Shown piece after piece: positions 4,660 through 6,152 of a DNA stretch of 64,000 nt. Source of the DNA: Asticcacaulis aquaticus (lineage in GTDB: Bacteria > Pseudomonadota > Alphaproteobacteria > Caulobacterales > Caulobacteraceae); NCBI RefSeq assembly GCF_028550415.1, contig NZ_JAQQKX010000001.1, positions 372,001 through 436,000 of the forward strand, written 5' to 3'. The notes beneath the pieces were generated by a model. That model was given only the letters and a program-made list of their open reading frames with translations, was not told the origin of the DNA and ran no database searches. Positions within the stretch are counted from its first letter, which is position 1. Each line of letters opens with the position of its first letter. Position numbers and translations under genes: made by a program.

Positions 4660-5244
4660 ATGAAAGTTGTTCTCCTGGAACGAGTCGAAAACCTCGGTCA
4701 CATCGGCGAAGTCGTCTCGGTTAAGGACGGTTTTGCCCGTAACTTCCTCCTGCCGCGCCACAAGGCTCTGCGCGCCAACGCCCAGAACCTGAAGTTCTTC
4801 GAAGCGCAAAAGGAACAGATCGTCGCCCGTAACGCCGCCAACAAGGCCGCTGCCGAAACGCAGGGTGCCGAGCTTGACGGTCAGCAGTACGTGATGATCC
4901 GTCAGGCCGGCGAAACCGGTCAGCTCTACGGATCGGTCACCGGCCGCGACGTCTCCGACGCCATCGCCGAAACCGGTGCCAAGGTCGAGCGCAACCAGAT
5001 CGTTCTGGACACGCCGATCAAGACGCTGGGCGTCCACAGCCTGAAGATCCGCCTCCACGCCGAAGTCTCGATCACCATCACGGTGAACGTGGCCCGTTCG
5101 GCCGAAGAAGCCGAGCGTCAGGCCGCTGGCGAAAACGTCATCGCTTCGCAATTCGAAGAAGACCGTCTGGCCGATGACGCCGCCGCTGCCGACCTGCTCG
5201 AAGGCGGCGCCGGTCAGGCCATCGCCGACTCTTACGAGTACTAA
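4660..5244 (+). CDS. rplI: 50S ribosomal protein L9
   Basis: A 194-residue L9 that binds 23S rRNA near the L1 stalk. The N-terminal domain (MKVVLLERVENLGHIGEVVSVKDGFARNFLLPR) is classical, followed by the long connecting helix and a C-terminal domain to about residue 150. The remaining 40 or so residues form an acidic, alanine-rich tail not found in the roughly 150-residue E. coli protein. AAGGAG precedes the start. A terminator follows 40 bases after the stop. Confidence 0.98.
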   Translation: MKVVLLERVENLGHIGEVVSVKDGFARNFLLPRHKALRANAQNLKFFEAQKEQIVARNAANKAAAETQGAELDGQQYVMIRQAGETGQLYGSVTGRDVSDAIAETGAKVERNQIVLDTPIKTLGVHSLKIRLHAEVSITITVNVARSAEEAERQAAGENVIASQFEEDRLADDAAAADLLEGGAGQAIADSYEY

Positions 5245-5283
5245 GAACCGGCGTCTCTGACGCCGATGTTCGAAGACAATTGA

Positions 5284-5314
5284 CCCCTGAGCCATTCTGG
5301 TTCAGGGGTTTTTT
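5284..5314 (+). terminator. intrinsic terminator of rpsF-rpsR-rplI
   Basis: CCCCTGA (5284-5290) pairs with TCAGGGG (5302-5308) around an 11-base loop and is followed directly by six T residues. Confidence 0.9.
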
Positions 5315-5320
5315 GATAAG

Positions 5321-5477
5321 AGACTGTTTGGGAAGTCAGCGGTTGAGCGCTCGCGAAGGATTTTTTTCGATCCGCAAGGCGGAAACGAAGCCTCGATGTA
5401 ACATCGGGGCAAGTTTCCAACATAGCGGGCGGAAATAAAGACCCGCGAGAGCGACCCGAAGACTTTCCAAACAGTCT
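5321..5477. repeat. 157-bp highly self-complementary element, MITE-like or structured leader RNA
   Basis: The ends are 17-base inverted repeats, 5321-5337 and 5461-5477, that pair fully apart from one position which would be a G-U pair in RNA. Nested inside are GGAAAC (5381-5386) with GTTTCC (5413-5418), enclosing GCCTCGATG (5390-5398) with CATCGGGGC (5402-5410) around a TAA loop. There are also CCGC/GCGG at 5372-5382, GCGGG/CCCGC at 5425-5446, and an imperfect helix between about 5345-5355 and 5444-5452. No ORF fits. It starts 7 bases after the rplI terminator and ends 21 bases before the next ATG. It could be a non-autonomous mobile palindrome or a cis-acting RNA; no other copy was noticed in this window. 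Confidence 0.6.
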
Positions 5478-5498
5478 AAAAGTCCATCAGGGGGACAC

Positions 5499-6152
5499 AT
5501 GCAACCCAATATTCCCGCCGCGGGTTCGCTCACGCCGTTGTTCGTCACCGAGGTCTACCGCACCGATCTGGCCGGGACCTCCGCTGATCCGCTCATCACC
5601 CGGCTGGAAGCCGCCTGCCGTCGGATCGCTGCCGAAGACAAAAAGGGGTGGGAATGGTCCGCCGCTCAGGGCTATCTGGGCTATACGTCGTATGAGAGCA
5701 TCGTCGATCCGACCAAAATCGATCCGGACTTCGCCGAATTGAAGGCGCTGCTGGACGTGCAGGCCCTGATCTTCGCCCGGCTGATGGAATTCGACCTGCG
5801 CGGCAAGGTACCGACGCTGGGGGCCCTGTGGATCAATATTCTCGATCCCAACGGCTCGCACGGCGGCCATACGCACCCCCACAGCGTCTTTTCCGGCACG
5901 ATCTACATCAGCGTCCCCGAAGGGGCCAGCGCCCTGCAGTTCGAAGACCCGCGACTGGGCTTCATGATGCACGCGCCGCAACGCCTGCCCAATGCCCGCC
6001 CGTACCGTCAGGTCATGGTGCCCATGGCACCCGCGCGCGGTACGTTGCTGCTGTGGGAAAGCTGGTTGCGTCACGAAGTCCCCACCAACCGCGCCAAAAC
6101 CCCGCGCATCTCGATCAGCTTCAACTACGACGTCGATCTGCGCACGTCCTGA
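5499..6152 (+). CDS. putative 2OG-Fe(II) oxygenase (TIGR02466-type family)
   Basis: A 217-residue protein with the double-stranded beta-helix pattern of 2-oxoglutarate/Fe(II) oxygenases. Candidate metal ligands are in GGHTHPHS (His124, His126, His128) and the distal His192 in WLRHEVP. Arg203, in the final strand RISISFNY, is a candidate for binding the 2-oxoglutarate carboxylate. These residues fit the family annotated as TIGR02466/PF13759, whose substrates are largely unknown. The start has CAGGGGG about 5 bases upstream. It is a single gene between the structured element and the first receptor's upstream region. Confidence 0.75.
   Translation: MQPNIPAAGSLTPLFVTEVYRTDLAGTSADPLITRLEAACRRIAAEDKKGWEWSAAQGYLGYTSYESIVDPTKIDPDFAELKALLDVQALIFARLMEFDLRGKVPTLGALWINILDPNGSHGGHTHPHSVFSGTIYISVPEGASALQFEDPRLGFMMHAPQRLPNARPYRQVMVPMAPARGTLLLWESWLRHEVPTNRAKTPRISISFNYDVDLRTS

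Follow-up and report, generated by a model that had tools for sequence, protein, structure and literature searches.

The intergenic region examined here lies in a 64,000-nucleotide stretch of the Asticcacaulis aquaticus genome (referred to below as the window), between a gene that we take to be the ribosomal gene rplI, as named in a first-pass annotation of the same DNA, and a gene read as a 2OG-Fe(II) oxygenase, the latter name also coming from that annotation. It contains a 158-base element on the plus strand (5320–5477) that adjoins rplI and is overlapped by no ORF of 80 aa or longer. The features of the locus are as follows.

4660..5244, + strand: upstream gene, read as rplI
5282..5310, + strand: stem of the rplI terminator, a neighbour outside the element, identical in Asticcacaulis sp. 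YBE204
5317..5319, + strand: left target-site duplication, TAA
5320..5477, + strand: copy of the miniature element, one imperfect rod; plus is the better-folding (sense) strand
5320..5337, + strand: left terminal inverted repeat, GAGACTGTTTGGGAAGTC
5370..5432, + strand: conserved core module (model R3), common to elements with other ends
5376..5381, + strand: conserved internal loop, 5' side, AAGGCG
5390..5410, + strand: apical 9-bp hairpin of the core
5418..5424, + strand: conserved internal loop, 3' side, CAACATA
5461..5477, + strand: right terminal inverted repeat, GACTTTCCAAACAGTCT (...GTCTC at the end in most other copies)
5499..6152, + strand: downstream gene, read as a 2OG-Fe(II) oxygenase

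The 157 bases at 5321–5477 fold as a single rod of −82.4 kcal/mol, compared with a mean of −44.2 (sd 3.86) for 200 shuffles of the same bases, none of which reached as low a value (z −9.9). The 17-base end repeats described in the first-pass annotation pair at 17 of 17 positions, 5321–5337 (AGACTGTTTGGGAAGTC) with 5461–5477 (GACTTTCCAAACAGTCT), including one G-U, and a nested hairpin of 6 bp plus 9 bp occupies 5381–5418 as described; the upstream terminator was also recovered by our scan, as the stem 5282–5310. The further stems listed there exist, but as parts of one whole-element rod rather than as separate hairpins, and the two similar inner blocks (5378–5390 and 5427–5440) are present but sit in different arms of that rod. 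The left boundary moves outward by one base, to G5320, because other copies end in GAGAC...GTCTC. At the right end of the window copy two bases (CT) appear to have been lost, giving ...GTCT(CT lost)AA, in which case the right target-site duplication may be read as TAA at 5477–5479. In the internal loop of this copy, the invariant A5377 is followed by G5378, which pairs with C5421, and then by the oppositions G5379.A5420 and C5380.A5419.

Dispersed copies and their target sites

Six full copies, including that of the window, as well as short fragments, are present in the A. aquaticus genome, and five full copies, one of them with different ends (Y_C3), in Asticcacaulis sp. YBE204. Whole-element matches were confined to these two genomes in a DNA search of 61. 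The 12 copies aligned here comprise the six, the five, and one from Xanthobacter sp. NM-59. They are 158–174 bp long, with terminal inverted repeats of 17–18 bp, and all except Y_C3 have the end consensus GAGACTGTTTGGGAAGTC and its inverse. An exact 3-bp TAA/TTA duplication flanks nine of the 12 and is absent or damaged in the window copy, Y_C1, and Y_C3. Y_C3 (L049:1461-1634) keeps the core, and its ends, GAGATAGGGTGGG, are quite different yet complementary to each other, with no matching duplication around them.

At the orthologous rplI–oxygenase junction of YBE204 (L140) the sequence reads terminator-GATAAGAAACG, without the element, i.e., an empty site. The same gene order lacks the element in five genomes of the genus Asticcacaulis (YBE204, that is G012, together with G016, G006, G002, and G013). 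When 13 copy loci were compared by BLAST, each with every other, full-copy matches never extended more than 20 bases beyond the element, the sole other match being an unrelated 49-base stretch in two YBE204 loci. By rough ORF calls, the other copies are mostly located between ORFs, with an ORF of 110 aa or longer overlapping four of 11, and among the 21 neighbouring ORFs of 11 copies eight run in the direction of the copy and 13 opposite to it, so that no orientation is clearly preferred. A plasmid BLAST returned no match to the window element.

The window element is a copy of a non-autonomous miniature transposable element (MITE). The first-pass annotation had offered a MITE-like mobile palindrome as one possibility, and comparison of sequences shows mobility through the dispersed copies, their common ends, the target duplications, and the empty site. 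The search of the genome and its relatives returned multiple copies with compensatory changes, not a single copy lacking them. The element nevertheless goes beyond a DNA palindrome, since the core covaries in a strand-specific manner.

Homologues of the oxygenase in the window occur as tandem pairs at G000:C14:57410-58687 in the A. aquaticus genome and at G012:C21:71617-72894 in YBE204. In each pair one frame contains an internal TAA, probably because two adjacent genes are read through.

Structure and spread of the core

Across the alignment of 12 copies, 97.1% of 718 cells are paired. Changes on both sides are seen in 23 of the 60 pairs, in 37 cells compared with 7.8 in shuffled and at most 11 in slid controls. 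The plus strand folds better in all 12 copies. Among pairs with a Watson-Crick majority, G.U exceeds A.C by 21:3 in cells and 16:3 in columns (p 0.004), and by 14:3 columns (p 0.013) with pairs drawn from the fold of the minus strand; leaving out the Xanthobacter copy, the corresponding columns are 12:3 (p 0.035) and 11:3 (p 0.057).

The core was found well beyond the element itself. Model R1 matched five of 200 genomes of the order, and model R2, built without the end repeats, seven of 385 genomes of the class and two of 398 of the phylum, the A. aquaticus genome being included each time; several of the R2 relatives have other ends. Full-rod models were left out of the estimates of spread because the reverse strand and other rods also match them, and a 65-position core model without end repeats (R3, built from 23 cores) was used. 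In the class to which Asticcacaulis belongs, and thus in Alphaproteobacteria, R3 matched 55 of the 385 sampled genomes at E 0.01 in a scan of up to 13 scored places per genome, where chance alone would give about four if the E-values, which are rough, are right; 46 of the 55 were at E 1e-5 or better, and at least seven of the 385, A. aquaticus included, had contributed members to the model.

Thirty-three loci given to R3 yielded 50 cores. Two cores are present in 17 of these loci, and in all 17 they are inverted with their 3' ends facing, at a spacing of 34–40 bases in 14 and of 60, 81, and 81 bases in the rest. Of 23 core-bearing loci, 15 had ends readable over their full length, giving 13 elements of 265–285 bp and two of 316–318 bp, with ends that include TAGAGC..., TAGAGTCTTTCTGG..., and TTTCTCACC...; in the remaining loci the reading ended at inner arms, gave no ends, or was doubtful. 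In a plasmid BLAST of three core-bearing elements there was no match for two and one weak partial match for the third. The core is not a private feature of the window element: as an uncatalogued module with a fold of its own, it recurs in MITE-like elements of other Alphaproteobacteria whose ends are unrelated. The elements of 316–318 bp, L130 and L133, come from other families of the same order, and L132 looks similar by eye; the two inverted cores of L130 and of L132 are 81 bases apart.

Covariation in the 50 cores amounts to 272 double-change cells, compared with 89.6 in shuffled and at most 72 in slid controls; by a plainer count, 18 pairs show a double change, against 14.9 in shuffled controls. 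The covariance modelling proposed in the first-pass annotation gave a signal beyond both kinds of control, in copies as well as in cores. The most regular feature is located in the internal loop, where G10-C58 and the unpaired A9 are invariant (A9 in 50 of 50) and G11.A57 is found in 47. Next to them, columns 12 and 56 are not Watson-Crick paired and switch together, being A.G in 28 cores and C.A in 22, never A.A and never C-G. Their mutual information, 0.990 bits, is the top value outside the drawn helices and is free of alignment pull, because both columns are unpaired in R3. We take these loop pairs to be of the sheared type, by analogy with RNA motifs. The two cores of an element differ in their A.G/C.A state in seven of the 17 two-core elements, each core being self-consistent. 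On a tree of the 50 cores built without these columns the state changes five times, and three supported independent pairs agree 3:0, three being too few for significance in a sign test. In pairs of the core with a Watson-Crick majority, G.U is seen in 30 cells and A.C in three (12 and three columns), with 29 other mismatches, in an alignment fitted to the structure model and therefore slightly favouring G.U.

Taken together, the covariation, the 12/56 rule, and the excess of G.U over A.C indicate that the core folds as a single strand, RNA or single-stranded DNA, and that one of its two strands is the sense strand. This covariation is structural and strand-specific, so that selection appears to act on a single-stranded form of the core, quite possibly on RNA.

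Ends and the transposase partner

A search for the end-repeat pattern identified short elements with GAGACTGTTTGG-type ends in Mesorhizobium, in Xanthobacter, in a Rhodothermaceae MAG, and elsewhere, and several of these elements carry matching TWA flanks. We presume that these ends belong to the IS1031/IS427 subgroup of IS5, with a 3-bp TNA target; a passage of PMC2516522 describes the IS1031 group as recognizing three nucleotides. One complete autonomous element with such ends was found, a 1010-bp element of Pseudonocardia (L094) that has the ends GAGACTGTTTGGAAAGTC...GACTTATCAAACAGGCTC and encodes an IS5-family transposase (NF033580, E 2.9e-74). Its protein was scanned against 74 loci, a scan that sees L094-like transposases only, and returned L094 itself, a second copy severed at the end of its locus (L111), and, in L107, a weak match to part of a transposase. 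L107 is a Rubrobacter MAG contig in which this weak IS5-transposase fragment (361-543) lies about 600 bases from a GAGACTGTTTGG-type end (at 1153); it is possibly a second autonomous element.

A search with the L094 protein at E 1e-3 gave no IS5 match in the A. aquaticus genome, a draft of 38 contigs, or in G008, a further genome of the genus. YBE204 has three IS5 matches, and the one examined place (L124) is without such ends. The 15-base end, with one mismatch allowed, occurs at 13 sites in A. aquaticus and seven in YBE204, all of them in copies plus one fragment; neither genome thus showed an autonomous partner bearing such ends. We infer that the mobilizing enzyme is a transposase of the IS5-family type acting in trans, absent from or unassembled in the A. 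aquaticus genome.

Elements with the same ends differ in their interiors. R3 had no match at GAGACTGTTTGG-ended MITEs from one G008 locus, three Mesorhizobium loci, five loci of the Rhodothermaceae MAG, and three of the three G239 loci scanned, the best score in this test of 23 loci (E 0.025) falling outside the elements; therefore, the same ends do not imply the same core. Cores and ends are thus exchanged independently of each other, given that the same ends enclose other interiors and that one core is found between various ends.

Two of these families deserve a description of their own. The MITEs of G008 (L206–L218) form a second family in the genus, with the same ends, another interior, and 13 copies retrieved; by eye, they have interior sequence in common with the Mesorhizobium elements L063, L091, and L108. 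The element of G239 (L172–L183, as well as Komagataeibacter contig L113) is 162–163 bp long, with the same ends, and seven of the seven copies listed are flanked by an exact duplication, TWA or TCA. Rather than one rod, it forms two side hairpins.

A G.U bias common to all end-sharing families was also considered and was not found, the bias being weak or absent in several. Counted on pairs common to both folds, the G.U:A.C columns are 4:4 in G500 and 0:0 in G504 (two copies), both of which carry the core, 0:3 in Mesorhizobium, 7:5 in the Rhodothermaceae MAG, 2:0 in G239, and 5:0 in G008.

The element resembles IS5-family derived MITEs in being short and multi-copy, in its terminal inverted repeats and TWA duplication, in its location mostly between ORFs, and in having the same ends as the IS5-family element L094. 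It differs from them in that the whole element is one rod, that its core is common to elements with other ends, and that no partner transposase was detected in the host genome.

Relation to known repeats and possible modes of action

The usual view of hairpin MITEs is that they arise from insertion sequences by deletion. As a MITE, the window copy belongs to a known kind of element; what is new is the exchangeable, covarying core. In a literature search on MITEs with Asticcacaulis, Caulobacter, IS5, and Alphaproteobacteria and a number of its genera, no title or abstract opening among the papers listed describes the element or its core. The core persists while the ends change, and its non-canonical pairing rule holds without exception in 50 cores, an observation suggesting that the interior of a MITE can be a module with a function. 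It also offers a single-strand target for experimental tests in roughly one seventh of the class genomes sampled (55 of 385).

Among hairpin MITEs of the Correia/NEMIS, ERIC, RUP, YPAL, and QMITE types, likened here by description, a similar size and a long hairpin are found. Transcripts of Correia elements are cut by RNase III, according to a passage of a review (PMC10969869). Unlike in this group, the core described here occurs across families that differ in their ends, and its non-canonical loop covaries. GANTC, which we take to be the CcrM site, occurs in none of the 12 copies. In this respect they differ from the CcrM-associated intergenic repeats of Caulobacter (CIR; Chen and Shapiro 2003), considered here through the passage on them in the same review (PMC10969869), which are also intergenic repeats of Caulobacterales.

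The CGTC-tagged REPs (Di Nocera 2013) are alphaproteobacterial hairpins, often arranged as inverted dimers, and are defined in the relevant passage of PMC3733652 by an unpaired CGTC tag, a CCA-type tail, and a stem of 8–9 bp. Judged by that definition, the core differs from them in having neither a CGTC tag nor a CCA tail. In turn, longer repeats of the form TTGC-GAGG-AG...CGAC-GNN-GCAA have the loop letters of the core. Repeats TTGCGAGGAG...CGACGNNGCAA were found in 15 of 190 genomes, and with a looser pattern in 26 of 289, the reversed control giving 0 in both; we take them for long CGTC-type REPs as these are described in PMC3733652. At 10 such loci R3 gave one score below E 0.1 (E 0.09). 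Kinship of the core with CGTC-type REPs is thus a lead, not membership. Nearly all of the places listed for these repeats read GGAG/CGAC, although at a few GGCG occurs together with CGAC, or GGAG together with CAAC; in view of such mixed combinations, the strict A.G/C.A rule is observed in the MITE cores only. A literature search on the letters of these repeats gave nothing relevant among the matches listed. We know of no transposase for CGTC REPs, and the core may bear on how such palindromes are moved or maintained.

The element is very probably a non-autonomous MITE moved by an IS5-type transposase on its GAGACTGTTTGG ends, with a TAA/TTA duplication, and carrying a core that is selected as a folded sense strand. 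An IS5-family type transposase would act in trans on the ends and create the duplication at the target. A copy transcribed by read-through from neighbouring genes would fold into the rod, whose non-canonical internal loop could be bound or processed by an RNA-binding protein or endonuclease of the host; this would make the insertion tolerable and allow the element to spread. An inverted two-core element would yield one correctly folded core from either transcribed strand. The RNA level fits the sense-strand evidence best, and this combination of read-through, loop binding or processing, and tolerated insertions appears to be the most likely mode of working, although we favour it tentatively. 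It is perhaps nearly as conceivable that the core is a widespread module of Alphaproteobacteria, adopted by several unrelated MITE lineages, in many cases as two inverted cores, for a benefit to persistence at the RNA level. Such a module might be pictured as a 65-nt hairpin whose loop consists of an isolated G-C, a G.A, and then A.G or C.A. It would then be a mobile, RNA-like cargo, possibly sharing its origin with the CGTC REPs.

The main alternative, a rather doubtful one, treats the core as a signal in single-stranded DNA, namely a hairpin of the lagging strand that a protein of replication or transposition would bind. G.T and sheared G.A pairs also form in DNA, and folding with DNA parameters likewise has a better strand (z −8.3 on plus, −6.5 on minus). 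The core occurs in mobile DNA of several kinds, and its inverted pairs resemble the REP dimers described in the passage of PMC3733652. The preference for G.U, however, is as expected for RNA. Moreover, we know of no use of single-stranded DNA in IS5-type DDE transposition.

It is unlikely that the element is simply a fold-back DNA palindrome whose arms are kept complementary by arm-to-arm correction (template switching or cruciform repair), with no function as a single strand. Long palindromes are prone to such correction, which would account for the outer arms being re-paired despite a wholesale change, as in L049 (GAGATAGGGTGGG), and some families lack the G.U bias. Yet correction yields Watson-Crick pairs alike on both strands and would leave unexplained the 30 G.U against three A.C, the switching between A.G and C.A while none of the 50 cores has C-G, and the unpaired A that is invariant in all 50.

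The first-pass annotation had also raised a new leader RNA, and a cis-regulatory leader of the oxygenase gene would agree with the location of the element directly upstream of that gene on the same strand. This reading is contradicted by the empty sites in five syntenic genomes and is very improbable: the other copies lie at unrelated places, beside other genes and in both orientations, and a scan for sigma-70-like promoters, which suits alphaproteobacterial promoters poorly, found no such site.

Least probable of all is a known Rfam RNA (6S, SRP, a riboswitch, or a catalogued sRNA) or an intrinsic terminator since, for all the likeness of the rod to 6S RNA in shape and size, no T-run follows it, the only gathering-level Rfam match in the whole window is one tRNA, relaxing the cutoff to E 10 brought up only sub-threshold matches for the element (STnc480, 19.7 bits against a gathering value of 72), and the cores of 17 further loci gave nothing at E up to 1 or 0.5. 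Near one core-bearing MITE, at L198:1-142, there is a sub-threshold match to the Brucella sRNA CI27 (RF02600; 30.6 bits, gathering 59.8), an RNA that may itself be derived from a repeat.
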